From NCBI GenBank assembly GCA_033239005.1, contig BSQZ01000015.1, positions 10,433,501-10,497,500 on the forward strand: a DNA stretch of 64,000 bases, written 5' to 3'. The stretch's first letter is position 1. Every line of letters begins with the position of its first letter. Below, one piece after another: positions 1,042 through 31,788 of the stretch. The notes below the pieces were generated by a model, which worked only from the letters and a program-made list of their open reading frames with translations, did not search any database and was not told the DNA's origin. This DNA comes from Lamellibrachia satsuma (taxonomy: Eukaryota; Annelida; Polychaeta; Sabellida; Siboglinidae). The position numbers and the translations under genes are program-made.

Positions 1042-1175
1042 TTGTTTGGTGCCAGCATGCACCTTCAGGCGGTTAGTTACGTAGTCCAACAGCCAGTCTC
1101 CAGTGCGCAGATTGGCACAGAGAGGGTGGCCAAGGTCGTTGCTCTTGCGGATTTTGCGCAGCACAGAGATGATGC
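1042..1175 (-). CDS. AGL: AGL exon 16 (last in window)
   Basis: Acceptor CACCAG at 1176-1181, donor GTGAGT directly after 1042. Enters in phase 1 and leaves in phase 0. Encodes the conserved [17 protein letters not shown] segment, which precedes the glucosidase domain in AGL. The next exon lies beyond base 1. Confidence 0.92.
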
Positions 1176-4100
1176 CTGGTGACACAAACGTGAACTACAA
1201 ATGATCTGTCTTTTTATCGACCTGTTCCACTGGGGTATGGAAGGAGCTAGATTGTACAACAGCATATGTATATCATCATTATGCCATGTAGTCATCATTA
1301 TGCCAAGTAGTCATCATTGTGCCAAGTAGTCATCATTGTGCCATGTAGTCATCATTATGCCAAGTAGTCATCATTGTGCCATGCAGTCATCATTATGCCA
1401 AGTAGTCATCATTGTGCCATGCAGTCATCATTATGCCATGTAGTCATCATTATGTCAACAGTGGTCATTTGGAGAGAACTTTGATGAGTGCAATTTACAT
1501 TTCTGTCTCATGCCATTTGTGTGTAAAAAGTGAACAGGCAATGTTCAGGTTATTAATGTTATGCATGGCTAACAAAACGTATGCAACAAATATACCATAA
1601 AAAGGAAACCATTTTATGCATTGTAAATAAGGTTGTAAAAGGTCTATGTTACGAGAGTAATCATACAAAACAGCCACAATGAAAAAACACAAACTGTATC
1701 ATAAAGTTTACATATACATGTTTAACATTGTTATTATGATGTGTAAGCATCAATGTCTATGATTGTAGGTGATGGACCATCTAAATACAAATTTAAAAAA
1801 GATAACTTAAATACCTGTAAAAAAATGTCACTGGATCATTTAACAGAAACAAATGGGTTTACAAAAACAACACTCGATTTCAAGTGGGCTTTCATTCTCA
1901 CTAGATTGCTGCTCACCCTGTAAGCCGCAGTAGGGCAGATCCCCATAGCCCGGCACATTGTAGGCCCCAAACCCAAACCCATCATCACTTTCCTCACAGC
2001 CGACGTGGTACAAGACCCGGTTGAGGTCGTTGAGACTGAGACTTGTTGTGATTCGCTCCAGGTCTGTCGACATGATCTCCTGGAGATTCCGCCCGGAGTA
2101 CGTGCGCATTCGGTAGCCAAACTGGGACAGCAGCTGACGCACATTCAGGATGGCACTCTTCTGCTTACCGTCCAGGGTCACTCTTAACACAACACGACAC
2201 GACACTGTTAGCACAGCAATGATCACGTCATTATCAGAACAGCATATGATACATCAATATCAATACAACAGATGACACTTCACTGTCAGCACAGCAGATG
2301 ACATGTCACTCTCGTTAAAGCAGATGGCATGTCACTGTCAGTAAAGCAGATGACATGTCACTGTCAGTAAAGCAGATGACATGTCACTGTCAGTAAAGCA
2401 GATGACATGTAATCACAAAAAAGGAGACGGAATGTCTATAATAGAAACTGTATAATGCAGCAACCTTCGTGAATAATTACCAATAATCACAAGTCATTGA
2501 CCTTATAAGCCACAGAATGTTGGCTGAAAACATTTCAGTGTCAAGTGTACAGAACAGTTGGCTGCCTCAAACAGTGGGGGAGACAATTGTTTTTCCTTAA
2601 GCTAGAAAACACATAACCAGTATTTAATGCTTTGATATTTATTTTGTATATTTCCAGCCAAACCCTCCAAGGCCACTAAGGTTAATAGAACATATGTTGG
2701 CCATTGCTGCACCTAAATACAAAAGTGTGTCATCACATGCCAGACAAGTGGAGTTTGCATGACAATTTTGTACGAGCTATCATTTGTAATCATGTTATAC
2801 CAGTGTTTATTCATGACAGTTTCAAATGTGGTCAAAATGCACCCCGTTTCCCTTTCCCAATGACAATATGAGAATCGACTGACTTGAAGCAGATGATGGA
2901 ACCAGGGTTGAAGTTGGCGAAGTCAAGGTCAGACGTTTCACTCGTGCTGGTGGCTTTCAACTTCACCATTTTGCTCTCATCAATCTTGATGTTTTCACGC
3001 ATCTTCAGTGTGTGATTGGGCAGACCATTGAGGTAGCGCGGGTCGCGGGAGTACTGAACACTGCCTGTACGCTGCACTACATGGGCCTCCATCAACACTT
3101 CCTCAATGAGACCTGATGCAACAACATTATGTACACTGCCTATACGCTGGACCACGTGAGCCTCTAACAAAACTTCCTCAATGGGACTTGGTGCAACAAC
3201 ATACTGTACACTGCCTGTACATTGGACCATGTGGACCTCTAACAACACCTCTTCAATGAGGTCTGGTGCAACAACATACTGTACCAGGGTTTTTTGTTAA
3301 GTGTGGCTATAGCAGGGACCATGAACCCCAAAGCAGGGACCACTTATCATGCTCAGCCTGTGGCCGAGTGACTACGTATCACAGACCACTGTGGATACAC
3401 CAGGAATATGTACTGTAATTGTACCTGCATTTTAGGATGTAACATCAAGTTATGCCAAAAAATTATTGTAATTAATTTATATGACAATTGACCAAACCAT
3501 TGATACATCATGATTGATGTTTTTTAATTATCTCTTTTCATGGTTCCACTGTATTATAGGTCTGGTTTACACAATCATGTTTTCAACAATTGCTAAGTAA
3601 AAATAAATAATATAATGACACTTAATGATTATGTTAAATTTTATTTATGGAACTGCAGCAGCTTGAATATGAGTCAACTGTGTCCACTCTCAACATCACA
3701 ACACTTCCTCTTCACTCATATCTGAGTCGATACAGTGTCCACTCTCAACATAGCAACACTTCCTCTTCACTTGAATACGAGTCAACTGTGTCCACTCTCA
3801 ACATCGCAACACTTCTTCACTTGAATACAAGTCAACTGTGTCCACTCTCAACATCGTAACACTTCCTCTTCACTTGAATATGAGTCAACTGTGTCCACTC
3901 TCAACATCGTAACACTTCCTCTTCACTTGAATATAAGTCAACTGTGTCCACTCTCAACATCGCAACATTTCCTCTTCACTTGAATGTCAACTGTGTCCTC
4001 TCTCAACATCGCAACACTTCCTCTGCACTCGTATCTGACTCAACACAGTGTCCACTCTCAACATCGCAACACTTCCTCTTCACTTGAATTTGAGTCCTCT

Positions 4101-7100
4101 GACAGCAGATTGAGCGCTGTCAAATAGTTGTGTATGGTTGGCTCCGATTTAGGTTCAGTCATGGTTTCATGTACGACCTGGCTCACATGTTCACCAAGTG
4201 TCAGTGGCTGACTGGGTGACTGGCTTTCTTTCGGAAGCTTCCTACCCTTCTTCTCTGCAAGCCATGCTTGCACAACATGTTGCATGAATGGCCTGAATGT
4301 TGGCGAAGACATTTCAGGACCATTCAATGAAATGTGAAGCAGGCTTTTTTTGTTAGAAGATCGTTCTTCAGTTTGGAGCGCAACCTGTTCTTCTGGCACT
4401 TGAGGATATTCGCTGCTTGCTCTGGCCAGACATTGGAGACAGGGAGGGCAAGGGCCACCTCTGCCACCCCACTCAGGAGAGGGTAGTGGTACTTGGTTGG
4501 ATGGTCTGTGGCACCTCTTCCGTCCAAGATGGTCTGTAGGACCTCTTCCCTCCATCATGGTCTGTGGCACCTCTTCCCTCCAAGATGGTCTGTGGCACCT
4601 CGTCCCTCCAAGATGGTCTGTGGCACCTCTTCCCTCCAAGATGGTCTGTACCATCTCTTCCCTCTATCATGGTCTGTGGCACCTCTTCCCTCCAAGATGG
4701 TCTGTGGCACCTCTTCTCTCCAAGATGGTCTGTGGCACCTCTTCCCTCCAACATGGTCTGTGGCACCTCTTCCCTCCAACATGGTCTGTAGCATCTCTTC
4801 CCTCCAAGATGGTCTGTGGCACCTCTTCCCTCCAAGATGGTCTGTGGCACCTCTTCCCTCCAACATGGTCTATGGCATCTCTTCCCTCCAAGATGGTCTG
4901 TAGCATCTCTTCCCTCCAACATGGTCTGTGGCATCTCTTCCCTCCAAGATGGTCTGTGGCACCTCTTCCCTCCAACATGGTCTGTGGCATATCTTCCCTC
5001 CAAGATGGTCTGTAGCATCTTTCCCCTCCAACATGGTCTGTGGCATCTCTTCCCTCCAAGATGGTATGTAGTATCTCTTCCCTCCAAGATGGTCTGTGGC
5101 ACCTCTTCCCTCCAACATGGTCTGTGGCACCTCTTCCCTCCAAGATGGTCTGTGGCACCTCGTCCCTCCAAGATGGTCTGTGGCACCTCTTCCCTCCAAG
5201 ATGGTCTGTACCATCTCTTCCCTCTATCATGGTCTGTGGCACCTCTTCCCTCCAAGATGGTCTGTGGCACCTCTTCTCTCCAAGATGGTCTGTGGCATCT
5301 CTTCCCTCCAAGATGGTATGTAGTATCTCTTCCATCCAAGATGATCTGTGGCACCTCTTCCCTCCAACATGGTCTGTGGCACCTCTTCCCTCCAAGATGG
5401 TCTGTGGCACCTCGTCCCTCCAAGATGGTCTGTGGCACCTCTTCCCTCCAAGATGGTCTGTACCATCTCTTCCCTCTATCATGGTCTGTGGCACCTCTTC
5501 CCTCCAAGATGGTCTGTGGCACCTCTTCTCTCCAAGATGGTCTGTGGCACCTCTTCCCTCCAACATGGTCTGTGGCACCTCTTCACTCCAAGATGGTCTG
5601 TAGCATCTCTTACCTCCAAGATGGTCTGTGGCACCTCTTCCCTCCAAGATGGTCTGTGGCACCTCTTCCCTCCAAGATGGTCTGTGGCACCTCTTCCCTC
5701 CAACATGGTCTGTGGCATCTCTTCCCTCCAAGATGGTCTGTAGCATCTCTTCCCTCCAACATGGTCTGTGGCACCTCTTCCCTCCAAGATGGTCTGTGGC
5801 ACCTCTTCCCTCCAAGATGGTCTGTGGCACCTCTTCCCTCCAACATGGTCTGTGGCATCTCTTCCCTCCAAGATGGTCTGTGGCAACTCTTCCTTCCAAG
5901 ATGGTCTGTGGCACCTCTTCCCTCCAACATGGTCTGTGGCACCTCTTCCCCCCAACATGGTCTGTGGCACCTCTTCTCTCCAAGCTACTAAGTCATACTT
6001 AGCAAGCTGTCACTCGACTCCTAGCTTTTGCAAAGCTATACTACGTTTTGTCCGATATCTCAAAAACACCTAATTGTCACTTGCTCCCTTTTGCCATTTC
6101 ATGGCAGTATAGTGCCAGACTAGGTCACTAGTAGTGGTTAGCCATGAGCCAGCAGAATACGCTAACCAGTTCCATAAAACTCTAGCAATAATGTAATATT
6201 AAGACGCTATAATGTTGACCAAGTTCAGTGACTGACAATGTGGATCTCTTACAACACCTCCTCAATGAGACCTGGTCAACAACATACTGTACACTGCCTG
6301 TATGCTTGACCATGTGGGCCTCTAACAACATCTCCTCAATGAGACCTGGTCAACAACATAGTGCACACTGCCTGTATGGTGGACCACGTAGGCCTCTAAC
6401 AACATCTCCTCAATGAGACCTGGAGCAACAACATAGTGAACACTGCCTGTATGGTGGACCACGTGGGCCTCTAACAACATCTCCTCAATGAGACCTGGAG
6501 CAACAACATAGTGAACACTGCCTGTATGGTGGACCACGTGGGCCTCTAACAACATCTCCTCAATGAGACCTGGTGCAGCAACATAGTGCACACTGCCTGT
6601 ATGGTGGACCACGTGGGCCTCTAACAACATCTCCTCAATGAGACCTGGAGCAACAACATAGTGAACACTGCCTGTATGGTGGACCACGTAGGCCTCTAAC
6701 AACATCTCCTCAATGAGACCTGGTGCAACAACATAGTGAACACTGCCTGTATGGTGGACCACGTGGGCCTCTAACAACATCTCCTCAATGAGACCTGGTG
6801 CAACAACATAGTGCACACTGCCTGTATGGTGGACCACGTAGGCCTCTAACAACATCTCCTCAATGAGACCTGGAGCAACAACATAGTGAACACTGCCTGT
6901 ATGGTGGACCACGTGGGCCTCTAACAACATCTCCTCAATGAGACCTGGAGCAACAACAAAGTGCACACTGCCTGTATGGTGGACCACGTGGGCCTCTAAC
7001 AACATCTCAATGAGACCTGGAGCAACAATATAGTGCACACTGCCTGTATGGTGGACCACGTGGGCCTCTAACAACATCTCCTCAATGAGACCTGGTGCAA

Positions 7101-10100
7101 CAACATAGTGCACACTGCCTGTATTGTGGACCACGTGGGCCTCTAACAACATCTCAATGAGACCTGGTGCAACAACATAGTGCACATTGCCTGTATGGTG
7201 GACCACGTTGGCCTCTAACAACACCTCCTCAATGAGACCTGGTGCAACAACATACTGTACAGTGGACCATGTGAGCCTCTAACTACACCTCCTCAAACAC
7301 ATCACACAAATCAATTAGACAAACTGATCGTACATACACATGTAGACCAGTAAGAATGATAACAGCTCTACATAGGACATTTTTACAATTCCCTATGTTT
7401 ATGTGGTACTCTGCACTTTAAATGTCACGAGTCTCACAACTCGTTGAATTCTCAAAGAACAATGTCGATGCCACTACACAGGAACACCACTGACAGATCA
7501 CATACATACAGTTGACACACATATGACTCATTGACAGATCACACGCACGCCCGCCCGCTCACACGCATGCACGCACCCAGTTGACACGTACCTGGGAAAC
7601 TCATGCTGATTGCACCGACATTGTTTGGGTGCCGGTTGAATGCGGTGCGCACCACCATGATGACACCCTGATGACTGATGGGATTGTGACGTGTCACAGC
7701 CACTATGTCAGTGTTGAGCTTGTCAACATATACCTAGTGACAGTAAGAATCATCTCTGGAAACTGGACACAGCAATATCAGTGTTCATCAACACAGACTA
7801 TATTTTAGTCTGTTATATATGATAATAGTGGTAAAAGTGCATGTGTGCGCGTGCGCACGTGCATGCGTGTGTGTGTGTGCATGCACACATGCGTGTGTGC
7901 ATACATGCAAATACATATATAATTGTTATGTCTAGGTATCAATAGATACAGTACCAATCAAATGTTTATATCTTTTTCCCATCTGTACTTATTGCCTTTG
8001 CCTGTTACAGCTCTCCAGTCTGTGGCTTTCACCTTGAGACCTTGTCAGTTGATTCCATGTCTACTGTTTAACTCTACAGAAACCAGTGATGTCAAAAACA
8101 GTGGCAAGTGTTTACCAGACATGAAGTGGTCAAGCATGACACTCACCTGCGCATAGCCATTCTTGGCGAGTTCTGCATGCAGTTGGTTCAGCTTTCTCTT
8201 GCCTGCTATTAAACCTGTCTTCATGCTTACCACCTCAGAGCTGATCGTTGCTGGCAAGTCTGACCAGCCTGGACACAGGTAGCATTCTGCCACCTCACGC
8301 ACCTAGAAGTATGACTGACACCTGTCACTCATTAGTTACTGTTACCATGCTAGATGTCATCAGTCTCTGTGGCACTCAAGAGTTCAGTAGGGATAAGGGT
8401 GCCACAGTGCCAGCGAAGGGCTGTGGGTACTGTTTCCACTTACTGTGTGTGCACAGGAGTCTGTTGTTTAATCAGTGAGCCCATCAATTGTTCATACATG
8501 TTTTATCACCTCACTTTTCAACTACAAAAAGCAGCTGCATTAATTTGTATAAATATGATATTTATTCAGGTACATGGGCATTTCCACACTAGTAGGCTAC
8601 TTTGTACATATTGAACGTTTGAATAAATGGACCAGAACTACCTTGATTTTGTGTAGATTTTGTGTACATTAAATCAATGTCTTATGACGACGTAAAATAA
8701 AAATAAAAGACGGGTATTTCTTTTTATAAGATGACATTTTTTCACAATAAAATTGTTTGAACTGTCTTAGACTTAGTGATGATTTAGGCTTAGCACACAC
8801 GGTCGTGATTCGACGAATGTTGTCGGCGGCAGAATAGAGAATACCGCCGATCTATGAGTCAGCATCCTTTGTTACGTTGGTAGATATCCATAATGTTGAT
8901 GTGCCTGCCACTAGTAACCACGACGCTACTGTATTGTCGAGTCTTGAGTCCGATTCAGGCTCCAATTCACTTACATAACCGGCGAGTAGGCCCTACTATC
9001 GGCAGCAGTTTCCCGGTTCGTCAACTCAAACGACAGGCAAACCACCAACGATTAAGCTGTGCTCAGACTAGCAAATTCATATTGTTTTATTCAATAGGCA
9101 ATACTGAATCTGGATAATTGCTGTTTTATCAAATAAGTAATGTTTCAATGTATTACTTTCAAAACAAGTTGTATTACTGAATGCTATATCTTCTATTTTT
9201 ATTTGTTGTATTGCTTTACTTTTAGTGTAAAGCATTTGATTTTGAGTGTGAGTGTAATTATATTAATTTTGTTTCATATTAGACGTATTTGCATGCATGT
9301 ACTTAAAGTCATCCATGTTTATATATTTAAAATAAACTTTCAAGTTACTTTTTCATGAACCTTCATTTGTTGGTTCTTCTTCTATTATTATTATTATTAT
9401 TGTGTAGGTGATAACGCCAACCTCGACTGGGCCAAGAATGGTTGTCATAGACGCAATGGCTTCCACGGAAGCCGTTCGTGCGTTTAAGGTTTTTTAGAAT
9501 GTTCAAGACTGGCAAAATTTAATTTCTGGCTAAGGGCCTGCTCCATAGACACATTTAATTTTGTTGGGAGAAAGTGACTTGGAATTGTATTCCTAGACAT
9601 CAAAGCTACAATCAAAATGTGACATAGAAAAATAAGATGACTTGACATCATGTCTATGCATACAATCATCAAGCAAACATAAAATAATACTCTCACTGTG
9701 TCTTTGTCACAGTTAGAAGATATATGGTAATGAATGACAAATACAGTTATTGTTGACTATAGCATCTTTGTGATGGGTAAATTTATCTTTCTTTTATTTC
9801 TTTTATTTCCATGTCACTGAAACTGTAGAGCATGTGACATGAGGAGACACACCATCAACTTTATTTATCAACCCCTATGTCATATAATGTACCCCATTAG
9901 TGTTAAAAGTCCCATATCTTATGTTTTATTTCTAGATTTAACACTACATTTGGTGAGAAGTACATACAGGCGCCCATCGTGTCAAAAATTATGTGTCAAT
10001 GTAGTATATTGAATTCCAGTCAAGTTTAGCTTTGAGTTCTTTGAAACAAGCAAAAATGTTACAAGTTAGTTATCAACATGACCTAATCTTAGGTATATTT

Positions 10101-13100
10101 TCTGCAGTTATTTTGTCAAAGGGTGTTGGATATGTGTGTGTGGGGGGGGGAGTACTGAGTGTATGTGAAGGTACTGAGTGTGTTTGGGGATGCTGAGTAT
10201 GTGGGGGGTGCTGTGTGTGTGTGTATGTGTGGGTGTTGAGCATGTGGGGGTGCTGAGTGTGTGTGGGTGTGCCGAGTGTGTGTGGGGGGGTGCCGAGTGT
10301 GTGGGGGTGCTGAGTTTGTGTGTGTGGGGTGCTGTGTGTGGGGGGGGTGCTGAGTGTGTGTGTGTGTGTGTGGGGGGTGCTGAGTGTGTGTGTGGGGGTG
10401 CTGAGTGTGTGTGTGGGGGGTGCTGAGTGTGTGTGGGGGGTGCTGAGTGTGTGTGTGTGGGGGGGTGCTGAGTGTGTGTGGGGGGTGCTGAGTGTGTGTG
10501 TGGATGCTGTGTGTAAGTAGGGAGTGAGAAAGCCCAAGTACCTACTTGGTTGAAGCCAGTACCCATCATTTTATCATGCAGCTGGTTTAGTGCTTTCCTG
10601 CTCACTGCCAGACGGCTCGCAGCTGCCTTAGAAATGTTAGGCCAAACAGGAAAAAGCTTGGGATCAGACACTACACTGACCTGTAAGCAGAAGGCAGCGC
10701 GTCAGACGGCACAAACATCACTAACTCTTCCTAATGCAGTCTTCCACTTTGTTGCATGTTTTGAAATGACACGAGGCACTGATCGACTTAAGGACGAACA
10801 GCTTTTAAGTAGAAATTTAAGTGTGGCTGAATGCTTCCCATAGAAGTCAGTTGGGTTTCAATGAACAGGACTGCCAGGGGTGATATGTAGTATTTTGAGT
10901 GGTCCTAATGACCAGAGATAGTGCCATATATGAACATATTTACATATTTCCATATTTTATAAGTGACTTGGTGACTGAAGTAATGTGTAAATTGTGCTGT
11001 CTGACCGCTGTCTGTTCCCACACATTGACAGTGCTCTTTCACTTACCTGGAGTGACCATCCTTTGACACCAGATGACACAGTACTACTGGCTACATTTCT
11101 TTGGAAGTAACAAAATAAAGAGACTCACCGTCAACACATGAGCAGGCAGTCTGCTACCTGTGTCCAATACCATGACACCACCAGGTGGTAGTAGATGTCA
11201 TGTATGCGAGTCAGTGTGCCCCTCCTCTATGGTTAGTACAACTTACAGTAACAACCACAACTCACCTGATACAAGCAGCCAATTGACAGTAGCAATCATG
11301 ACTCACCTGTCAACTGATGACAGCAGCTGAACACATAGGTGTGAATGACATGAACACATAGGTGTGAATGACATGAACACATAGGTGTGAATGACATGAA
11401 CACATAGGTGTGAATGACATGAACACATAGGTGTGAATGACATGAACACATAGGTGTGAATGACATGAACACATAGGTGTGAATGACATGAACACATAGG
11501 TGCAACTCACTTGGTTGAAGCCAGCGTTTGACAGTTCCTGGTGCAGTTTGTTGAGTATTTTCTTGCCTTCGATGATGCCCGTCTGAATAGTAACCTTGTC
11601 ACCCTCATTCTTTGATGCATCTGACCAGCTTGTGTAAAGACGTGTCTCAGTAACAACGTTGATCTGCAAGAATCACTCCGCCATCTTACTGTCAAATCAT
11701 CGCCCACAATAGCAAAACAGCAACCTCTAAACCATAATATCTACCTTAAAACAATAATGTCATCCTCAATACCATGACACCAATCTATTTATTATAGCAT
11801 CAACCATAATATTATAATATTAGCCACAATATCATTAATTCATATTTTAGTGTTATCTCAAACTAGCCAAAAAGTACTAAAAGATGTTGGCAAGAACTGT
11901 AAAGATATGGCGATGGACCAACAGCCTGTAAGGGAGAAGACAAGGGAAACAATACAAATGTTGCACTGTTTTATACACTACTTGTACTACCCCAGGTGGT
12001 GTTGCACGGCAAAAAAGGCAAGAGCTTATGACTCCTTGCACTACCCAGCCAAGTTTTTGTAGTGCAATTCCAATGGCAATGACATCTTCGAGCCACAAAA
12101 ATCACATACAACTGCAGGTTTCACAAAGCATTCAGTAGATGTGTGATGTATATCATGGAACAATGGTTGAAACACACATAACATTACTAACAATGGCATG
12201 TAACTCTTGATCTTGTAATTTACGTCAAATGTCCACATTGGTTCCTTCGATGTAATACCCCACCTCCCAGACGAATTTCAAATATTTTTTAATGTACGAA
12301 CTACGACCATAGGCCCCAGACAGGCCCTTAGCCAGGGACCCGTCTGCCCATCTTGGATATGGGCAAATGTCTGATGAAGACGGGTAAAATTTCTTTTTAC
12401 AGGAATTGTTTTGAACTTTTACAGGAATTGTTTTGAGCGCACGCAGTCGGGATTCGACGAATGTTGTTGTCGGCAGAATAGCGAATATTACTAGAGAACA
12501 TTATAACCGGTCTCTTGCTTTGCATAATAACCGGTCCCTTATACCAGTGCACATGCACTACTAGAAACGGAACCAGTACACACTCGCATTTCAACCTGTT
12601 CAATACTTGCTTAGTTATTGTAATTTCACGCTTTCTCTTTAATAAAGTGACTGAACAAATGGAACTCTGTTCTTATTTATAACTAAACAACTTGATGGCG
12701 CCTGTGAACGTGGAGTGTCCGATCGAGGATTGTGACTATACGGCTACGCACGCAGAGGCGGCAGTGGTGGCTGCTATGCTGAGTGTACATGCCACTGTGC
12801 ACGTCGCAGTCCCCCGGGCGCTGGGCGTGAATACGAAAATGGAGAAACTCAAGCGTCCTTCCGTAGCACTGGCCGGGACGGGCGAGGCCTGGTCATACTT
12901 CATAACCCGCTGGGGTGAGTACAAGACGGGTACTAAACTTGTTGGACCCGACATAGTCGCACAACTACTGGAATGCTGCGAGGAGGAGTTGAGAAAAGAC
13001 CTCACTTGCACAGCGGGCAAGAGCCTAATGAGCAGTGACGAAAAAGATGTCCTCACCGCCATGAAGGCACTCGCCATCCGAGCGGAGAACACCATGATAG

Positions 13101-16100
13101 CTCAGGTAGCCCTGCCTAACATGCGGCAGGGACACGAGGAGCCCATCCGGTCGTTCTACGCCCGTATCAAGGGGCAGGCGGATACATGCAAGTACGAGAT
13201 GAAGTGCACTAAGACGGAGTGCGAACAAGTCAACGACTTCACAGAAGAGATTATACGCAATGTGATTGCCCGCGGCATCGCAGACCAAGAGATACAACTT
13301 GATCTACTCGGTGAAAAGAACCAGGACATGCCATTAAAGTACATGATTGAGTATATCGAGGCTGCCTGATCGGCATTGGAGTCACCCAACAAATGGGACT
13401 GAGTACCAAGGACTTCATACCCGTATCCATGACTATGAAGGCTGCGAACAACAAGGGAATTCGTATTCTCGGAGCTGTGGTGGTCAGATTCGCCGGTAAC
13501 AGTGGCACTCGGAGACGACGACGACGTCGAGGAGGACAACCTGACATGGTGCGCCGCGGGCCTCGAATCATTGCGATCAGTGAATTGGGACCGCGTCATG
13601 GAGGCTACCAGCAGCGACGTCGATATGCACACACTGGAGGAAATGGCAACCGACGGCATCCCCGACTCGAAGATCGAGATGCCAGAGACGATTCGCCAGT
13701 ACCGTGAAAACATCACATCGACAGACGGAGTGATCCTATACAAGGACAGAGTTTTCATACCGCCCTCACTCCGCGGTGAGATACTGAGCACCCTCCACGC
13801 TGCCCACCAGGGCGTATCGATGATGACCGCCTGTGCAGAATCCGCTGTGTTCTGGCCAGGCATATCGGCCGACATCAGCACCACTCGGAAAAATTGCGAA
13901 CACTGCCACCGGATGGCACCCTCACAGCCTGGAGCGCCGCCCATCCCACCGATCCCAGTCGTTTACCCCTTCCAGGCAGTGTGCTCGGACTTCTTCGTAC
14001 ACAGGGGCGTAAATTACCTCGTGACGGTGGACAGATACTCAAACTGGCCAATCATATCGCAGTCGACAGGTGGCGCCACCGGCCTCATCGACCACTTACG
14101 TCGCGCCTTCGTGACGTACGGGACGCCAGAAGAGCTTGCATCGGACGGGGGTCCGGAATTCACCTCTACCGAGACCAGGTCCTTCCTGCACAGATGGGGC
14201 GTACACCACCGCCTATCATCGGTGGCCTTCCCCCACAGCAACTGTCGTGCAGAGATTGAGGTGAAGACGATGAAACGACTCATCACCGACAACACCGGTC
14301 CGAAGGGAGAACTGGACACTGACGCTGTGCAGATAGCGATACTACAAAATCGCAACACACCCGACCCTAAAACAAAGATCTCCCCGGCGATGTGTGTCTT
14401 CGGCCGCCCGATACGCGATTTCATCCCGATTATCCCCGGGAAATACAGACCACATGAGACTTGGCGTGAGACACTCAAAGCAAGGGAGGAAGCCCTCCGT
14501 AAATGCCACATCCGCACAGCTGAAACCTGGGCGGAGCACACTAAACGCCTTCCACCACTTGCGGTAGGGGACTTCGTCCGCGTACAGAACCAGACAGGAC
14601 CTCACCCCAACAAATGGGACAAGACGGGCAGTATCGTTGAGGTACGTCAGCACGACCAATACGCGATCAAGATTGACGGATCGGGCAGAGTCACACTTCG
14701 GAACAGGAAATTCCTGCGCAAGTTCAGCCCAGTTTACTACGACCGGCCGCCAACCCGATCGATCTATGACGACCTAGCAACCCGCGTCACCGTACCAACA
14801 CCCGTTGTGACACCGCAACTACCTGACCTCTATAATGACCCTGCGACACCCGCGACGCAGACGGGGCACACACCGCCACCAACACTGACATCAGCGAGAA
14901 TGCTCCAGCACAAGACAACGCCCGCTGCAGTCACGCCTACAACCCCAGGAAGAGACACACCGAAGCGCGCGACCCTCCAGACGCCACCACCAGCCCCAGC
15001 GACCCCGAGTGAAACCACCAGCACCAGCAATTGGTCAACGACGATCCACCAGAGCGACCAGCGTGCCTACCTGGCACAAGGACTATTCCATGGGATAGTC
15101 AATAAACATTTATCAGCCTTTATCCAGTAGCATAAAGACTCGGAGGGAGATAGAGAACATTATAACCGGTCTCTTGCTTTGCATAATAACCGGTCCCTTA
15201 TACCAGTGCGCATGCGCTACTAGAAACGGAACCAGTACACACTCGCATTTCAACCTGTTCAATACTTGTTTAGTTATTGTAATTTCACGTTTTCTCTTTA
15301 GTAAAGTGACTGAACAAATGGAACTCTGTTCTTATTTAATCACCGATCTATAAGACTATATATTTTTAACCTTGACATAGTCGAAAAATTATTGATACTG
15401 CAGCCAATCTCTATTTATTGTAATCATGTACGTCATTGATTGGGTGCTTTCTCTGTGCCTATCAGCGCTCTCATTTGAAGAAATAATCCCTTTACCCAGA
15501 TGTTGTGGGGCAAGTTCAAAATGACACCTGCCAAGCGAGAGTAAGCGAAAAGATGATGCGATATGTCAACGTCAAAGTTCATGACAATCGATGCCTTTTT
15601 CAGAAACGTGAATAAGAGCAGCGTTCCGACAACTGTCCCTGAACAATCTGAGGCAGCAATTCCTTCCACATCTTTTGTTACGGTGGCGGAAATGCACAAT
15701 GTTGGTGTGCCTGCCGCCAGTAACCAAGACACTACTGTATTGTCACCCACCGCTGGCACTCTGCAGTGACCAAGCGCGATTGTGGTCGACTTAAAAATTG
15801 AGTTTGATTTGGGCTCTGATTCACATACATAATCAGCGTGTATTACGGCAGCACTTTCACGGTTGCTGAACGAATGATTAGGCTGTGCTCACTTAGTAAA
15901 TTCATATTGTTGGATGATTGCTGTTTTATCAAAGAAGTAATGTTTCAATGTATTACTTTCAAAACCAATTGTATTATTGAATGCTATTTCTATTTTTATT
16001 TGTTGTATTGCTTTAGTTTTAGTGTCATGCATTTTATTTTAAGTGTGATTGTAATCATGTTTGCTCATACTAGATGTATTTGCATGCATGTATGTACGTA

Positions 16101-19100
16101 AAATGTTTCAAGCATTACTTCCGTGTTTATATATTTAAAATAAAGTTTCAAGTTGCTTTTTCACGAACCTTCATGTGTTGGCTCTTCCTTAATTATGTAG
16201 AATTGACCATATAATCATTTTCCTATTTTTCATTATCATGTCATGGCTTAATTTTTTTTAACTAGGCTAAATACTAAGGCTTAAGTGTATGCAAAGTTGT
16301 TACTCCTGTGAAGGTGATAATGCCAAACTTGCTGCACAGCTAGTAAGAGTCGACTGGGCCAATAATGGCTAAACTGGACTTGGCCTGCCATTGAAAAAAC
16401 CTAATTCGGCCAAAAATAGCAATCATTTGACATTTGCTCAACTTGCATTGCCCACTGGCTTACCAGTGCAAAAACCAAATGGGCCAATAATGGCTGTCAT
16501 TATATACCAGCATTAGCTTGCCAGTGAAAACATCAATTGGGCCAATAATGTTTGTTATTGATGCAAACAGCTTCCACACAGGCCGTTTGTATGCTTAAGG
16601 TTACACCTTTTAGAATGTTCAAGACTGGCAAAATTTTATTTCTGGATAAGGGCCTGCCTCCAGGCACCCCTACAACATGTCAGCCCCATACATGGGCCCC
16701 AGGCACCCCTACAACATGTCAACCCTATATATGGGCCCCCACGCACCCCTACAACATGTCAGCCCCATACATGGGCCCCAGGCACCCCTACAACATGTCA
16801 GCCCCATACATGGGCCCCCAGGCACCCCTACAACATGTCAGCCCCATACATGGGCCCCCAGGCACCCCTACAACATGTCTTCTTCTTCTTCTTCCATTTA
16901 AGCTCAGGACTCTATGTTAGCCACATATAAATGTGGCTAGAGTATTTTCGAGCTGTGATCACTATTGCGTGGGAGCGGGTGATGTAATGCCGGTTCGGGT
17001 CCGTTTTAGTCAGTATATGTCGCGTCTGCGTAGTTAGGCAATAATTTAGTGCATGTGCTATATGATATCTAATAATAAGGACTGTATAATTGTTCTATGT
17101 TGGCATGGTGGGAAGGCATTGTCTAAACCTTTCTACTGACGGTTGGCTAACTAATTTGTGTGTGCTATTGTTCCATAGTCTGATGGAGCTGGGAAAGAAT
17201 GAGGATTTGTAGGCGTCGATGCGGGTGAAAGTCTGGTAAAAGCGATAAGTGCTGCCTCTGGTGCATGTTGGTGCGGCGGCTAGCGACTTCGTTGTCACAT
17301 CAACCAGTTTGTGGTTGATGCGGTACAGCATCATCAACTTGGCATCGGCTCGTCTTCTCTCTAGTGACTTCCATTCCAAACTCTCAAGCATGTTCCCTAC
17401 GCTGCTGCGTCGCCGGTAGTCGTTCATTACGAAACGGGCTGCTTGCCTCTGGACATTCTCAACTGCCTTGGTGTACTTTTTGGTGGATGGGTCCCATACA
17501 GTCGACGCATACTCCACAATAGGCCTTACAAAGGTCTGGTAACACCGCGATTTGATGGCTTGGGGGCAGCTGCTGATGTTGCGCTGTAAGAAAGCCCTGG
17601 TGTTGTTGGCCTTCTTTGTTATGTTGTCGATGTGGTCATTCCATGTTAACTTCCTGTCGATGGTTACTCCAATGTACTTGGCGCCAGTGACCTCCTTTAT
17701 AGCTTTCCCATGGATCGAGTAGCAGCTGACTACTTTCTTCTTCCTTCTGTTGGTGATTCTGATAATCTCGCACTTGTCTTGGTTAAACTCCATCAACCAG
17801 TCTGCCTCCCATTTCTGCAACCTGTCGATGTCATCTTGTAATGTATCTGCGTCAGCTGTTGCATTGATGTTCCGGTACAGGAGGCAGTCATCAGCAAATA
17901 GACGTGCGGTAGAGGATACTTGGTCTGGGAGGTCATTGATGTAACACAGGAAGAGGATGGGGCCGAGGACTGTGCCCTGTGGAACGCCTGAGGTGACAGC
18001 AGCTGTAAATGATCTTTTACCTTCGAGGACTACTTCTTGGGTACGGTTACTCAGGAAGTTTTGGATCCAGTCCAGTGTATTTCCTCGCATGCCGTAATGA
18101 CGTAATTTGGCTGCCAGGTTGGGATGAGACACTTTATCAAATGCTTTAGAGAAATCCAGCAGCACAGCGTCGATCTGTCCAGCATCATGTAGGCCCTTGA
18201 CTAGGTCATCAACTGTTTGGATAAGCTGGGTTTCGCAAGATCTACGTTTGCGGAAGCCATGCTGATAGTCAGTTAGTATGTTGAGGTTTTCCAGGTGGTC
18301 CATGAAGTTGCTGTGTATGATGTGCTGCAGAGTTTTGCAGGAAATGCTCGTTAGAGATATAGGTCTGTAGTTTGATGGTGAGCCTCTATCTCCCTTCTTG
18401 TAGACTGGAATAACCCAAGCATGTTTCCAATCTACCGGCACGGTGCCTTGATCAAGGGATGATCAAGGCATAGATGAGCGTCAGTACTGGTGCAATCTCA
18501 GCGGCATAGTCTTTCAGGAGCCTGGCAGGAATCGCATCAGGTCCAGTGGCTTTATGGGGTTTAACTGCTTCGAGGAGTTTTCTCACGCCAGTTTCACATA
18601 CTGTGATATCTGGCAAGACACTGTATTTGCAAGTTCCAAGGTTCAGCACGTTAATCTTGCCTCCTTTCGTGAAAACCGATGAGAATTGGGTGTTAAGAAT
18701 ATCAGCTTTAGTCTGGCTGTCGCTGTGGACAATGCCATTCTTCTTGAGTGGGGCTACTCCGTTGTTGTCGCTTTTCTTGCTTTTGATGAAAGACCAAAAC
18801 TTCTTCAGATTGCCCCCATTCTGGTTGCTTTCTCCTATCATGGAGTTAATGTATTGGTAATATGCCTTGCAGCACTCTGATTGAACAAGCTTCTTTGTAG
18901 CCCGGTATTTTGCTATGTCCTGGTCAGACTTGGTTCGCTGGGCCTTCTTGTAGCATTTCTTTTTCTTTCTAGACAGGTTTCTTATCTTGCCGTTGGCCCA
19001 GGGCTGATTGTAGCGCTGGGAAGACAGTTTTGTTGGAACGTGATTGGCCAATACGCTTTGGCATTTGGCTGTAAATAATGCCCACAATGTTTCCACAGGT

Positions 19101-22100
19101 GTTTCCGGGTTGTATCGGGTTTGCATCTCTTCAGCAAAAGCAGCTAGATCTTTCTTGATCATTTCAGTGTCTGCTTTCTTCCATATGTGGATCTTCCTCT
19201 GGACAGGTCTTTGTCTTTTTGGCACGATGTCCGAGTTTACGTAGACTGCTGCGTCATGATCGCTGACCCCTGGTATTGGCTCGCATCTGTTGACGAGGGA
19301 AGGTCGATTTGTTAGGAAGACATCTAAGGTGTTGTGAAGTCTTGTCGGGAAAGTGACCATCTGTGATAAGCCCAGCATGGCAAAAGTGTCAATGAAGAGT
19401 TCATTTATCTGTTTAGTGTACTGATGTTTCGATATGGTGTTTGTTTGCCAATTGACGTCTGGGAGGTTTGTGTCTCCTGCAATCCACAGGGGGCTGTTTG
19501 GGAATTTCCTGGCTATGCTTGATATGGCATCACACATACAGTTTGTGTAATCAGAGTTGTTGTCTGTTGGCCTGTAAACTCCGAGTACTACAAGAGGGTG
19601 TGGCTGTGCGGTCTGAATTTTCACTCCTACCATCTCGCACGGTGACATTATAGATATGCGTTCTGCGACAAGTCCAGTCTTGATGGCAATCATGACCCCT
19701 CCATAACCATCCGCTCTGTCATTCCTGAAAGGAGGGTCATACCCAGGTGGCATGAATTCATTACTGTTGATATTGGGCTTGAGCCAAGTTTCACATGCAA
19801 TTATGATGTCAGGTTTTGCGTCCTCTACCATGTACTGGAATTCAAGCTTCTTTGTGCTGATTGACTGTGTATTGACATTAAGCAGACTTATATTGGATTT
19901 CCAATGTTTTCTTGGCATTTGAGACATGACTAGATCACGATATTCCCAGTATCGTTGTGAAGCTAAGGGGGTCCTCGAGTGGCGAGGGTGTAAAACAAAA
20001 TTACGGAATAAATAAGATAAAATAACCTTTAAAAGCGTACTCAGATTATCATATTAAAACAGGTGGTAAAATTTTAATAAATAAATAAATAATAGTGACA
20101 ATAATACTTATATAAAATTTTAATAAATAAATAAATAATAGTGACAATAATACTTATATAAAACAAAATTACGGAATAAATAAGATAAAATAACCTTTAA
20201 AAGCGTACTCAAATTATCATATTAAAACAGGTGGTTAAATTTTAATAAATAAATAAATAATAGTGACAATAATACATATATAAAACGACAATAATACTTA
20301 TATAAGATCTGAATAGCTAAAAGAAGAACTCGTGAAAGCTGTGCAATGGATGACGCTGATTTGTGCAGGATAAGACGGAGCTTCAGACAAATCAACTTGT
20401 TTGTCCGACAGGCGTTATGATCTAGGGCGACTCTAGTTCATAAAGTTCAGCGTCGGTTAAAAAGCCTGGTTCGTACGAAAGATACGGGGCAGGGATATAT
20501 AGCATGGATAGATAGTGTGTATGTAATGTATATGTCACGCTAGGTGTTGATACCCGAGCAAGTGCGTCTAACAAGCTATGTTCAACTAAAACATACGGTA
20601 GCCTTGTTGGCCGTAGGGTCTTTGTTTACACAGATCAGCCTTGAACCAAAGGGCGGGAAATACAAATTTAATCTGGCTGGTCTAAGTGCAGATTTTACTT
20701 AGCTGCATTCAGCATATATCGTTCAGGTTTCTCCCGTCTGGGTCTTTATGTTGTACTTGATCGGTGTACCGATCAGTAAACAAGGTAAATTATTATATAA
20801 ATTAGCAAAATGACAAATTCCACCGGAGATCCGACCCGACAACACCACCGCTGACCACGCCACCTAGCGAGTCAACCCCATACATGGGCCCCCAGGCACC
20901 CCTGCAACATGTCAGCCCCATACATGGGCCCCCAGGCACCCCTACAACATGTCAGCCCCATACATGGGCCCCCAGGCACCCCTACAACATGTCAACCCCA
21001 TACATGGGCCCCCAGGCACCCCTGCAACATGTCAGCCCCATACATGGGCCCCCAGGCACCCCTACAACATGTCAACCCCATACATGGGCCCCCAGGCACC
21101 CTTGCAACATGTCAACCCCATACATGGGCCCCCAGGCACCCCTGCAACATGTCAGCCCCATACATGAGCCCCCAGGCACCCCTACAACATGTCAGCCCCA
21201 TACATGGGCCCCCAGGCACCCCTACAACATGTCAACCCCATACATGGGCCCCCAGGCACCCTTGCAACATGTCAGCCCCATACATGGGCCCCAGGCACCC
21301 CTACAACATGTCAACCCCATACATGGGCCCCAGGCACCCCTACAACATGTCAACCCCATACATGGGCCCCAGGCACCCCTACAACATGGCAACCCCATAC
21401 ATGTGAAACTGACGGAGATATGAAGGAACAGACAGAGTCACAGACTACTTTATTATATAGATGTGGAGAAAATAAAAAGAGAAAGCAAATGATAACTTTG
21501 ACGAATTCTGCAGAAACCAGTGATGGTGGCTCACAGGTGAGATAGAATGTAAATGAACATGCATACATACACGTGGTTTTACTATGCAATGCAGATAGAT
21601 CATGATGTGCTCATAGATGCTACTTCAGAGGACTTACATGGTGTGGCACAAACTCATCGTAGCCCCTGTTACTGCCGGTCGCACAACAGGTCATCGCCAC
21701 CAGGGCGGAAGTCGGCAGAAGGTCGAGGGCTGTGCGTTTCTATAAACCAAACAATTAACAACTGTTGATATTCTACCAAAGTGTCATATCTGGTAGAAGA
21801 GTGTGCTTAACTCTTTCTATTCCAACGACTTTTTACGCAGTTACCCTTTCTATCCCAACTACAACTTTTTGTGCAGTTGTGACGTCACAAAATATGTGTA
21901 TGTGTACTGGCCCAGGACATTTCCAGTTGTTATGTGCTGTTTTGCTTAAATTTTCGTCGGTGATTTTGAGCGTAATAAATTACAAAATAAAGTGTTGATT
22001 TTCGTTGTTATCGCAAAATGGCTGATGCCATTCACGCCGTGTGTGATGGCAACAATGTTAATGCATTCTCAGATGATTCAGATGCTATTTTAAATAGTAA

Positions 22101-25100
22101 TCAAGCGGTTTTTGAACCAATCGATCGGCACAAGTTCATGACAACTGGATGCAACTTTGGCTAGTAGAGGACTCAGAAACCGACTGTGATTTTGAGGGTT
22201 TCCAACAGAGGATGGATTTTCAACAATTTCGCACAGAGACTTTCTCGAATGTGGTATGGATAGCGGTCCAAGAATAACTGTTTTTAAGTTGTGTTACCTG
22301 AAAAATAAATAAATATTATACATATCTTGTGCTTGTGTGGTCACTAACAGACACTAATAGTATAACAAGTATTAAAGTTGATAAATGCAATAAATTAAGC
22401 TGTCGTTCTTTTAAAACATTTATAAAAAAATATATATATGGTAAAGTTAAAATGCACCTACATTCATCAAATTCACACCGTTCAAAAGATAATTTAATTA
22501 GCTTTCATTTCGTATATAGTTTATGGTATATGCTGACACATAAAGCATAACAAATACAACATGAACAAGGAATGCTCAGATAAAAAACATGAAATCAGTG
22601 TGAAAGCAAATTTGCTTGGCAACTAGGAGGCTTATTTTGGATGGGGCTCTGGGATAAAAAGAGTTGAACCTATACCTCAAAAACACCATCCACATAGCTT
22701 TGTTGCCTTCATCTTAACCAACTCACTGATCCCTGCCTAAATAACTCAGTGATTCCATCATAACCAACTCACTGAACCCTGCATAACCAACTCACTGATC
22801 CCAGCATAACCAACTCACAGGACCCCTGCATAACCAACTCACAGAATCCCAGAATAACCAACTCACAGAACCCCTGCATAACCAACTCACTGAACCCTGA
22901 AGATCCAACTCACAGAACCCCTGCATAACCAACTCACATAACCCCGACAAAATTAACTCACTGAACTTTTCATAACCAACGCACTGAAACCCGGCATAAC
23001 TAACTCACCGAACCCTGGCAAAACCAACTCACTGAACTCTTTGTAACCAACTCACTGAACCCCCGCATAACAAAGGCCTCACAAAGTGTCTCCTGACTCC
23101 AGTCCCTGCCAAAAGGAACCAGAGAGCCATGGCCAACCTGGCAGTTTCTCTACTGCCTCAGGACTAGTGTTGGATGCTGCAGACACTTGATGCAGAAGTG
23201 GGGGTATAACTAGGATGTCCTTACAACTCCTGTGCCAGAGCCTGTACGCTGCAGTGACAGGGAAAAATGTAGTGACACAATAAGGAGAAAAAGACTATAG
23301 CTACTGTAATGTTAGGTGTGACTGCGTGTTCAGAGTGATCAGGTCTCACCTCAATGGGACTTTCATTGTCATGTGTCTGGTCCAGGAAAATGGCATGAGC
23401 ACTGCTGGGCTGAAGGAGGCGAGATGGGGGCAGCAGCATCGACCCAACAGGACGGCCGCCATACAGGTGGACAAGACGACCTAGCTCGTACGCATCCCAC
23501 GCACTCATAGCCTCTACACAAACACAACATACACGTCATTTTACCATATTCTGTCCTGTGACATTTTACCTATTCTGTGACATTTTCAATGTTCTAAGTT
23601 TATTATTCATTATTGTTATGTAATAAGTAAATATAAATGGCATTATATGGGATCACAAAATTAAATTACAAATCATTCTTATACAATAACAGTTGTTGCT
23701 CTCCTCTTTATCCCTGTAGTCCGGGGTGAGGCTGGCACCAACACCAGTCGTAGATTTTTGTTTCCCCTTCTTCTTCATCACTAGTCCCGTTTCACTGCCG
23801 TCTCCACCAATCATCTCCACTCCCTTGCCCTCATTCTCCACTCCCTTGCCCTCATTCTCCACTCCCACCAAATTTCTCTTCACACAATCCTGCCATCTCA
23901 GTCTTTGTCTTCCTCTTGTCCTTCTACCCTCCACTTTAAGCGCATCCACTCTCTTCGTCAACCATACCTTTTCATTCTTTCATCATGTCAAGCCCACTTT
24001 AGCCGGTTCCTCAACAGCTTCCTCGTGAGACCCTCTCTCACACCAACTTCCCCCTCAGCTCCTCCATTCTTTGCTTGTCTATTCTTTTCACTCCCGCAAT
24101 TCTTCTCACCCAGTTATTCTTGCAAACTTGCAATTTCTCTTGTTGCTTTTCTGCCATTGCCATGGTCTCTAGGCCGTATAGGTTTGCTGATCCTAAGCAC
24201 CTTTCCTTTTATATGTCTATCTCCCATCACCACTTCCACTTTCCTCCATGCACTCGCCCCAGCTTGTATTTTCCTGCAAATTTCCATCTCCGTTCTGCCA
24301 TCCCCGCAAACCGCTCCACCCAGATATTCAAAGCTGTCTCATTGGTTCAGTTTCTTCCCTTCCAGTCTTATATCAAGATATTTTTTCTGCTGCCCGATCA
24401 AAAGCACCTCATCTTCTCTAGACTTACTCTCAGTCCATGTTTGCAAAAGATTTCCTTCCAATCTACCAACCGTTCTTGTCCGCTACTACTGCCTGGCGTA
24501 CATTAACTTGCTGAGAATGTCCCTCGTACTCGTTTTCTGCTGATCACCTCCACTACTGCAATGAATAATGGTGGGCTTAGGGCACTCCCCTGTCTCAGGC
24601 CGACGTCCACCCTGAATTCCTCCGATATTCTCAGTTTGCACACAACTCTACCTTTTGTCTCTTCATATGTGCCTTCGACCATTTATGACAATGTGTATAT
24701 TATACATTTATTTTATGACAGTTGTTGTGACAGTTTGTATATTGTACATTTATTTTGTGGTTGTGCTGCAGTCGTGGTAAAGTACACTATCTTACGTAAC
24801 AAGGTTTCTATAGTTATTGTCGAGCCAGGCTAGGCAGTAGTCCTGGAAATGGGCATTATGTTAGGTAATAGGACGGTAATGTTTACTGAAGTGTATCGTT
24901 GACTGGTAGAGTGTATATACGCTGGGGACAGTTCTAACTGGGGTCGATCGATTGTAGTTCGCAAGAAGGCGGCTACAATATATAAAGAGGGGTCGATCGA
25001 CTGTAGTTCGCGAGAAGGCGACTACAATATTTAAAGAGACGGTCGATCGATTGTAGTTCGCGAGGAGACGGCTACAATAGTTAAAGAGACGGTCGTCGAT

Positions 25101-28100
25101 TGTAGTTCGCGAGGAGGCGGCTACAATAGTTAAAGAGACGGTCGATCGATTGTAGTTCGCGAGAAGGCAGCTGCAATAGTTAAGGGACGGACAGAGATAA
25201 GTTGAGAGAAGACAACTAGTCTGCAATACTGAAATTATGGGTCAGTAAAAGCTGCATGACGCAACACAAGTTGAACAATGCCAGAAGCGACTGGCATAAG
25301 TATTATCTATTACGTTGTTAACTGATAATATGTGTGTATATATTTATATATATATATTCGAATGTCCTATGTGTTAATACATGTTATAAAGGTGAAGAGT
25401 CATCTACTGTAAATATGGGTTTAGAGTTAAGTCATTATTTGCCTAAAGCGTGACGGCCTTTGTTGGCATAGAGCTTGTCAGGTGACACGCCGTGTATTCG
25501 TATTTTGTATAATTGAATCGGTAAACAGATATGATTATCATTGCGTTGTTATGCATGTGTATATGGTAATTATTTACTGTCAGTGTAGTGATTTGGTTAA
25601 ATTGTGCCCTGCAGAACCAGCTTGGGATCTAACAACTGGCAACCAGCTTGGGATCTAACGACTGGCAACCAGCTTGGGATCTAACGACTGGCAACCAGCT
25701 TGGGATCTAACGACTGGCAACCAGCTTGGGATATATAACGACTGGCAACCAGCTTGAAATATAAGGTGCCATAAGTGTTACAAGGTAAGTGTCATAAGGT
25801 GCCATAAGTGTTACAAGGTAAGTGTCATAAGGTGCCATAAGTATTACAAGGTAAGTGTCATAAGGTGTCATAGGTGTTACAAGGTAAGTAATAAATAATT
25901 GCCATGAGTATTACAAGGTAAGTACCATAAGGTGCCATAAATATTACAAGGTAAGTACCACAAGGTGCCATAAGTGTTACAAGGTAAGTTCCACAAGGTG
26001 CCATAAGTATTACAAGATGTCATAAGGTGCCGTAGGTGTTACAAGGTAAGTGCCATAAGTATTACACGATGTCATAAGGTGCCGCAGTTGTGTAAAAAGG
26101 TAAGTGCCATAAGTATTACAAGGTAAGTGCCATAAGGTGCCATAAGTATTACAAGGTAAGTACCATAAGGTGCCGTAGGTGTTACAAAGTAAGTGCCATA
26201 AGTATTACAAGGTGTCATAAGGTGTTGTAGGTGTTAAAAGGTAAGTGCCATAAGTATTACAAGTTGAGTGCCATAAGGTGCCATAAGTATTACAAGGTAA
26301 GTACCATGAGGTGCCGTAGATGTTACAAGGTAAGTACCATAAGGAGCCATAAGTATTACAAGGTAAGTACCATAAGGTGCCGTAGGTGTTACAAGGTAAG
26401 TGCCATAAGGTGCCATAAGTATTACAATGTAAGTGCCATAAGTATTACAAGGTGTCATAAGGTGCCGTAGGTGTTACAAGGTAAGTGTCATAAGAGAAAA
26501 AAGGTACGTTCTTATATAACGCAGTATCCAGTCCTTTTTACACTTCACCCCTTGGCAGACCTGTTAATTTCAGGTACTCAGGTAGCCAGGTACTCATTTA
26601 TACAGCTGAGTGAACTGTGGCAACATGGGATGAACAAAACTGTCAAAGCTTCGAAATGGCAGCAAGAAGATTCAAACCTGGTTTCTCTCTGTTGAGAGCC
26701 CGACATTCTAACCATGCTCCACTAACATGAGCGTTACAATGTAAGTGCCGTAAGGTAGAATGAGTGTTATAAGGTAAGCGCCATAAGGTGCCATAACTGT
26801 TAATTAATATACAGATAACATCAGTGTGAAAATGAAATGCACTGGTGTAATTAATAGCACCACCAACCAACCAATCATATATCAAATAAGTTTCCAGCAA
26901 GGTAAGCTCATATAGCAACCAGTGGTCCTGTATTAGATCCACCTATGTCTATGCAAAGATTCTATTTTCTTCTAAATTAGATTCTAAATCAAGACTTGGC
27001 TCAAACTCAATGTGATTGAACTGACCTCTGATGAGTGAATTGAGGCCAAGTCTGTTGATGAAGATATGGTCTGTGGCACAGTTGTTGGTGAACAGCTCAG
27101 CGATGACATAGAGATCTGGACGCACCTTGCGTGCCTCGTCCAACATATACTGCCGACAGAGTGACTCTAATTACACACAACAGTCACAACTGTTCATATC
27201 ACACATTAATTTAAGTAACAATTAGGTCAGACAGCAGGAAACTACTACATTACCTCTAGCTAACATATCTAGTATGATAGCAATGCCAGTAGGCCAGTAC
27301 CTCAGCTACATGGATGGGTGTGCTATGACAATTGTCGAGCCGCACCCCATGGAAGATGCGGGCTGTCTCTGTGGCGTACTGCCTCATGTGTTCCCACAGG
27401 TATGGGTTGTCTTCTGGCTTCTTACCAAACCGCAGCTTCACACTGTCTCCCCATGGGATCAACTCCCGCTTCAGGTAAACATCAGATCCTAGCAATGATA
27501 ACATACGGAACAATAAACATTCAAATGCGTTTCCTAATATGAAAACTGCAACATTAACTAATTACTTTATTGGAACAATATATACCACCCTATCTACATG
27601 AACACCCACTCCAGCTACATGAGCAACCACACCCACCCCAGCTAGATGAGTACCCACACCCACCCCAGCTACTGTACACGAGCAACCACACTCTACCCCA
27701 GCTACAAAAGCACCCACATCCACCCCAGCTACATGAGCAACCACACCCCACCCCAGTTACAAGAGCACCCACACCCACCCCAGGTAAAAGAGCACCCACA
27801 CCCACCCCAGTTACAAGAGCACCCACACCCACACCATCTACATGAGCACCCACACACATCCCAGCTACATGAGCACCCACACCCTTCCCAGCTACATGAG
27901 CACCCACACCCATCCCAGCTACATGAGCACCCACACCCACCCCAGCTACATGAGCACCCACCACATTTACATGGAGTATCTGCACATGTTCAATATGCCG
28001 AGCCATCAATAACCATAAAAATTAGATACACAGTACGTGGCACTGTTTGATTAGAGCACACTGACCAGGCTCAGCAAAGTTTTTCATGGGGTCAGCATTG

Positions 28101-31100: not shown

Positions 31101-31527
31101 GAAAATCTACCAGGGTGGCTCCTATGAGAGCGACTTCAATAGTCTTAATTAATAGGAGTCTCCTATATCCAATTTGTACATTCTCAAAATAAATATTTAT
31201 GTGTATACATATATATATATATATATATATGCTCTCACATCTTATTGCTAGCGCTAATCAATCATCCACGGTGTGGTTTACCACTTGCGCTAAAATCACT
31301 TGCTCCCAACTGGAGCTGCATGTGGCTCCCTCTGACAGTTTTCATCCTTTTAAATAAGTCGTGAATTTAGCGGGATCCTGTGCTTCTGAGGATCCTAGAT
31401 TTTGATACCAAAGCGTTAGACCATTGGATTTCCATGCTTAGATGAATCAGTCAGAATCCTTGGTTCTCGGGAGCTCGACATGGTATATTATTAGCTAAAA
31501 TGTCATTATCACCGCATAAACCGACCG

Positions 31528-31568
<41 letters not shown>

Positions 31569-31697: not shown

Positions 31698-31788
<91 letters not shown>

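Follow-up and report, generated by a model that had tools for sequence, protein, structure and literature searches.

The 5′ part of the gene for the glycogen debranching enzyme (AGL, or GDE) of the tubeworm Lamellibrachia satsuma contains three tandem copies of one exon. It lies on the minus strand of the window, by which we mean the whole 64,000-nucleotide stretch analyzed here (contig BSQZ01000015.1, positions 10,433,501 to 10,497,500). Three homologous, stop-free copies of exon 12, each in phase 0-0 and called 12a, 12b and 12c in the order of transcription, are present between exons 11 and 13 (Table 1), and the triplication is real and old. Judging from sequence, we lean slightly to the view that the three copies are used one at a time, by mutually exclusive splicing.

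A previous reading of the same letters without database searches (the sequence-only reading) had placed three exons here, each with an AG acceptor, a GT donor and an open phase 0-0 frame, and had assigned them all to one AGL segment by a common Trp, an LN.LH motif and a final G-aromatic-x-Q. The coordinates, borders, phases and frames are all as it gave them, the common residues reappear in our alignment, and homology to the one segment follows from a profile search with the E values of Table 1. The profile was made of 107 distinct exon-12 segments, picked by a text pattern from 130 of 191 AGL relatives with the other 61 left out. The relatives themselves comprise 120 of the 605 matches of one search and all 71 matches of a search with a shorter query. 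When the profile is run against the six frames of the window, the next match after the three copies has an E value of 2.3, and no fourth copy is found in the window by this search.

Chance open frames are ruled out as the source of the copies by these E values together with a control. The window has, on both strands, 3,589 stretches of 31–71 codons that are bounded by AG and GT and stop-free in phase 0. The best profile scores among them are 83.8 bits at 12a, 45.1 at 12c and 26.0 at 12b. Of the six candidates listed next, five coincide in part with 12a; the remaining one lies clear of all copies and scores 6.6 bits. The 12a segment is 46% identical to the human one by tblastn. In 12c, a possible second in-frame acceptor AG at 8293 (minus strand), nine bases into the exon, would make the exon three residues shorter; the profile score is 45.1 bits from there and 45.0 from 8302. 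Because the copies are located in a repeat-rich stretch, an assembly artefact could be suspected, but aligned nucleotide identity between the copies is 54% (70/129), 53% (81/153) and ~51% (67/132), far below that of haplotypes or misjoined reads, making such an artefact hardly credible.

The surrounding gene was modeled with 18 exons from tblastn matches of a human AGL query and splice borders set by eye. The frame, which starts with the Met at 40201, is open as far as 1042 with 12a, 12b or 12c singly and with all three, without a single stop, as the sequence-only reading had held for the way from exon 11 to exon 13. Identity of the model to the human AGL query is 46.5% with 12a, 45.6% with 12b, 45.5% with 12c and 41.4% with all three. 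Pfam recognizes, in order, hGDE_N (E 3.6e-14), hDGE_amylase (E 2.5e-139) and hGDE_central (E 1e-72). Exon 12a encodes residues 667–717 of the model, and the hGDE_central match starts at 695. The top-scoring whole relatives against the 12a model, P0006 and the Capitella protein P0009, are 57% identical to it.

Table 1 Features of the L. satsuma AGL locus, in window coordinates
Feature	Position	Strand	Remarks
AGL gene model, 5′ part	1042..40201	(-)	tblastn, splice borders and Pfam; 15 single exons plus 12a–c
Single exons in order, part 1	40201-40120, 32158-31936, 30547-29986, 29825-29717, 29381-29258	(-)	
Single exons in order, part 2	28956-28777, 28205-28066, 27488-27301, 27149-27026, 23513-23350	(-)	
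Single exons in order, part 3	21739-21638, 7733-7592, 3112-2884, 2182-1917, 1175-1042	(-)	
Exon 11	21638..21739	(-)	ends in phase 0; upstream partner of 12a/12b/12c
Exon 12a	11511..11663	(-)	51 codons, phase 0-0; ordinary AGL exon-12 segment; profile E 8.8e-24
Intronic arm between 12a and 12b	11134..11171 (core 11139-11166)	(-)	complementary to the 5′ end of 12c
Exon 12b	10546..10680	(-)	45 codons, phase 0-0; diverged, ~8 residues shorter; profile E 6.3e-5
Arm inside exon 12c	8265..8301 (core 8270-8297)	(-)	predicted to pair with the intronic arm
Exon 12c	8147..8302	(-)	52 codons, phase 0-0; diverged; profile E 3.7e-12
Exon 13	7592..7733	(-)	starts in phase 0; downstream partner of 12a/12b/12c

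The AGL/GDE of other animals belongs to the same protein family, has its domains in the same order and contains the exon-12 segment in the form of 12a, the ordinary one. It differs from the tubeworm gene in copy number. Among the 191 relatives listed, the profile finds the segment once in 186, not at all in five and twice in none, as against three times in the tubeworm. The top database match, P0004 from Acipenser, was considered as a second duplicated case and rejected, since it repeats the segment of exons 10–11 rather than that of exon 12.

The sequence-only reading had proposed an old tandem duplication kept under coding constraint. Its age is supported: apart from retroelement pieces, the introns flanking the copies are not alignable; the proportion of differing synonymous sites (pS) between copies is 0.685–0.769, near saturation, against 0.384–0.434 for nonsynonymous sites (pN); and the relatives just described have a single segment. 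A stretch that recurs ahead of both 12a and 12c (best E 2.6e-13) was considered as a sign of recent duplication with intron homology; it was read as retroelement because it lies beside LTR (long terminal repeat) retroelement sequence. In a tree of the segments, 12a, 12b and 12c group with P0137 at 0.84, and 12b groups with 12c at only 0.26.

Constraint is a more divided matter, as past constraint is indicated by a simulation of neutral decay, clearly for 12c and more weakly for 12b, but is not established by codon tests. The simulation starts from 12a, has no insertions or deletions, and requires a copy to retain its score, an uninterrupted frame and the dinucleotides of the two splice sites. 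At 0.75 substitutions per site, where identity is 0.54 and thus like that observed, 0 of 3000 simulated copies pass for b or c. At 0.5 substitutions per site, the joint probability is 0.0003 for b and 0 for c. Clock fits give ~1.7 to 3.2 neutral substitutions per codon per branch, or roughly 0.6 to 1.1 per site. The simulation therefore argues against decay ever since the copies arose, with more force for c than for b; it has no bearing on recent decay. Branch codon models give a nonsynonymous to synonymous rate ratio (dN/dS, omega) of 0.19 (a), 0.52 (b) and 0.40 (c), and a clock codon test gives a 2dlnL (twice the log-likelihood difference) of 6.35 in a star tree; dN/dS was dropped as proof of constraint, as its free-branch and clock versions do not settle the matter. 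Codon usage was also dropped as coding evidence, b and c being inseparable from open intron stretches. Coding constraint over much of the life of the copies is likely, with better support for c than for b.

What an exchange of copies could do to the enzyme depends on where exon 12 lies in it. By alignment to the yeast enzyme, the exon opens just after the last barrel strand and closes with the last barrel helix. In the AlphaFold model of the relative P0128 (mean pLDDT, predicted local distance difference test, of 70; loop blocks 66–73, helix blocks 81–87), strand 310–313 is followed by a loop, helix 349–364 and strand 369–376. A Foldseek search with this model places ten debranching enzyme chains best, followed by other GH13-type enzymes. 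As modeled, exon 12 is essentially one loop and one helix, which would be easier to exchange than to add.

In the Candida glabrata enzyme, the residues that contact B-2 to B-4 of the branch include Leu713 and Val714 (PMC4837477). They correspond to exon-12 residues 3–4 by a gap-free alignment count anchored at His669, and the catalytic Asp535 and Glu564 are encoded by exons other than exon 12. Across the 107 segments, no variation is seen at V3, V4, E6, R8 or the Asn of LN.LH, and very little at Y10 (conserved in 106), the H of LN.LH (106) and W13 (105). All the conserved positions are kept in 12a. Exon 12b has the changes E6D, R8K and Y10F and lacks about eight residues, including the conserved T/S-G-I stretch, while 12c has V3E, R8Y and Y10C and keeps TGLIAGK, LNQLH and GYAQ. 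Residue 8 is the position of the human variant R675W, which occurs in patients with additional mutations and inhibits the yeast enzyme only partly (PMC4837477). With Glu for Val at a contact and Tyr for the invariant Arg, 12c would be expected to alter branch recognition or activity; the same would be expected of 12b, with Lys for Arg, Phe for Tyr and a shorter loop.

Published searches for mutually exclusive exons look for similar sequence, length within 20 residues, the same frame, no stop and GT-AG borders (PMC5740500). The three copies are similar in sequence, have lengths of 51, 45 and 52 codons, share one frame, contain no stop and are bounded by GT-AG. A position weight matrix (PWM) of splice sites, trained on the other exons of the AGL gene and too small for much weight, ranks the donor of 12c first and that of 12a third among the 18 exons, with that of 12b in the lower part. 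Because a second loop and helix would be hard to fit into the barrel, we infer that inclusion is exclusive. In this mode, 12b and 12c would enter mRNA as 12a does, and the wall of the transferase site, on the side that binds the branch, would differ with the copy chosen.

If the copies were instead cassette exons that can be included together, an extra loop and helix would be inserted between the barrel and the next domain. Their lengths are all multiples of three, the junctions are in phase 0 and every combination is open, but the segment completes the barrel and joins the first strand of the next domain directly, and two copies occur in none of the relatives listed. Cassette use is quite unlikely, and inclusion of two or three copies together seems, on the structural model, less likely than an exclusive choice.

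A number of results weigh against the exclusive use of three working copies. Because the frame survives joint inclusion, exclusivity cannot be imposed by discarding mRNA with two copies. The acceptor of 12c is the weakest in the gene by the small PWM. Arg8 (human Arg675), present in 107 of 107 segments, is replaced by Lys in 12b and by Tyr in 12c. With 12b and 12c as queries, a set of 5.8 billion proteins gives no b- or c-like match at E<=10 (178 candidates, with length limits). Under weaker divergence the simulation is less telling, and weak for b: the values are 0.048 (b) and 0.005 (c) at 0.3 substitutions per site, and 0.149 (b) and 0.069 (c) at 0.2. The codon test fails to reject an omega of 1 for b and c when branches are free (2dlnL 2.7), and again under a clock with the two as sisters (2dlnL 2.7). 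Open intron stretches score as high in codon usage as b in 38% and as c in 17% of cases.

Much of this would also be expected if 12b and 12c were dying copies, which were coding for long and are now skipped or rarely used, leaving 12a as the sole working exon. Their branches in the segment tree are long (b 1.78 and c 1.14 versus a 0.39), the otherwise invariant Arg is lost, 12b is shortened, the acceptor of 12c is weak, omega tests do not reject 1 in most settings, and the protein set searched contains no match to either. However, neither copy has a stop, a frameshift or a lost splice dinucleotide, decay over the whole time since duplication misfits the simulation, most clearly for c, and b replaces three conserved residues by similar ones (D for E, K for R and F for Y). 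We regard dying copies as possible, though not the probable state of the gene.

If the copies are chosen exclusively, a pairing within the pre-mRNA is a candidate for the switch. An inverted-repeat search of 7592-13200 gives 11 pairs, the longest of which joins the start of 12c to the intron between 12a and 12b, with 24 of 28 positions complementary in the cores (Table 1). The isolated duplex has 30 pairs from the second base of 12c, 15 of them exact and consecutive, and an energy of −52.6 kcal/mol. The arm of 12c is the best inverted match to the gene among the 18 exons, with a score of 16 versus 13 at most. When the three exons and four introns are shuffled with dinucleotides preserved, none of 600 shuffles reaches the pairing on the Watson-Crick score (0/300 in a separate set). 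In a fold of 12a to 13 (4,072 bases), 21 pairs form, and the pairing is worth ~8 kcal/mol, as the energy is −1028.3 with it and −1020.2 with these pairs forbidden. With seven shuffled arms, the fold is −1016.0 to −1024.0. Energies of whole exons against whole introns were also calculated. For c and intron a-b the value is −119.6, whereas 150 shuffles average −98.4 and go down to −112.8. These energies were not used, since pairing c with the final 2 kb of intron 11 gives −125.8, so that length dominates.

With the duplex formed, the sequence adjoining the 12c acceptor would be masked and 12b would sit in a loop, so that splicing from 12a to 13 would be favored. If 12b were spliced in instead, the intronic arm would be lost and 12c thereby freed. 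A functional role of this exon-intron pairing is nevertheless doubtful, because the complementarity was spotted after looking and is seen in one genome, and with G-U pairs counted, 2 of 600 shuffles equal it. Read on its opposite strand, the intronic arm resembles the beginning of 12c (E-A-CYLCP), so that it may be a small inverted copy of that beginning. Such an incidental copy without a role in splicing is the probable explanation, although it does not readily account for the 30 pairs with 15 exact in a row, for the best inverted match of 18 exons falling here, or for the 21 pairs that form in the 4-kb fold. The broader proposal, that a gutless symbiotic animal tunes the branch grip of its debranching enzyme by a choice among three exons set by the 12c-intron duplex, is speculative, and we give it little credence as a whole.

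Exclusively spliced duplicated exons are a known kind, and many duplicated exons are spliced in this way, for which long-range contacts may matter more in invertebrates (PMC5224494). In OGDH, exons 4a and 4b are duplicated and mutually exclusive and alter the properties of a metabolic enzyme (PMC7969005). Tubeworm AGL is similar in having duplicated exons in a metabolic enzyme. Exclusivity in OGDH has been seen in RNA and is enforced by distant branch points, whereas in AGL it is proposed, with a candidate RNA duplex in place of branch points. PKM (pyruvate kinase) exchanges two exons, versus the three copies in tubeworm AGL. PKM, named as a mutually exclusive case (PMC5740500), is again an enzyme of carbohydrate metabolism, while the exchange in AGL is a reading of the sequence.

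In docker-selector systems of the Dscam type (PMC6071210), long-range pre-mRNA pairing could choose among tandem exons as the candidate in AGL would, but several selectors compete there for one docking site, while in AGL one pairing is found, with one arm in an exon. Competing selectors were not found at AGL, as only 12c fits the arm (best ungapped scores of 8 for 12a and 9 for 12b versus 16); intron-intron selectors were looked for solely through the inverted-repeat list of 7592-13200.

The sequence-only reading knew of no such case in a debranching enzyme, and the matches listed from the literature searched, in their available portions, likewise contain no earlier report of a glycogen debranching enzyme with a duplicated or mutually exclusive exon; among them, the case is new. 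Two papers on tubeworm glycogen (PMC10192322 and PMC6918071) have nothing on the AGL gene in the portions available. Should the exclusive choice prove true, the debranching enzymes made from this single gene would differ in the site that holds the branch glucan. They would amount to a natural experiment in branch recognition, and the loss of this enzyme in humans causes glycogen storage disease III. Both 12b and 12c are changed at human Arg675, the site of the patient variant R675W. The locus would also offer a concrete model, as yet a candidate, of exon choice by exon-intron pairing.

The C-terminal glucosidase part of AGL lies outside the window, and the matching L. satsuma record P0164, ‘Glycogen debranching enzyme [Lamellibrachia satsuma]’, has PF06202. 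Exons 14–16 are found unbroken in it (210/210 residues). It begins within repeat units just ahead of exon 14 and lacks exons 1–13, and among the 71 relatives from the shorter query it alone bears the name of L. satsuma. Thus, even if 12b and 12c are silent, the sole L. satsuma AGL record among the search matches is without the whole 5′ part of the gene. The units belong to a 75-base tandem repeat on the minus strand at 6246-7261 (13.7 copies) and 3052-3284 (3.1 copies), each unit corresponding to the acceptor and first codons of exon 14, in frame. A 318-codon open stretch (7278-6325, minus strand) runs in this repeat, within which P0164 begins.

Other repeats are found in the introns. A 23-base tandem repeat (11328-11502, 7.6 copies, 100% identical) starts 8 bases past the end of 12a, beside its donor, and is likely young and variable in length. 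Intron 13 has a 28-base tandem array of 53 copies (4500-5984) with long open stretches in several frames. Intron 11 holds an LTR retroelement at 12493-15338 (plus strand) with integrase domains PF00665 and PF17921, its 188-base repeats (12493-12680 and 15151-15338) being 97% identical. Retroelement pieces near 8792-8843, 8863-8938 and 9110-9387 match the window at 12436-12487 and 15669-16196. Intron 11 also holds a LINE-like (long interspersed nuclear element) sequence at 17098-20053 (minus strand) with reverse transcriptase PF00078 and endonuclease-type PF14529. At 59996-61915 (plus strand), coding stretches with ankyrin repeats apparently belong to a neighboring gene.

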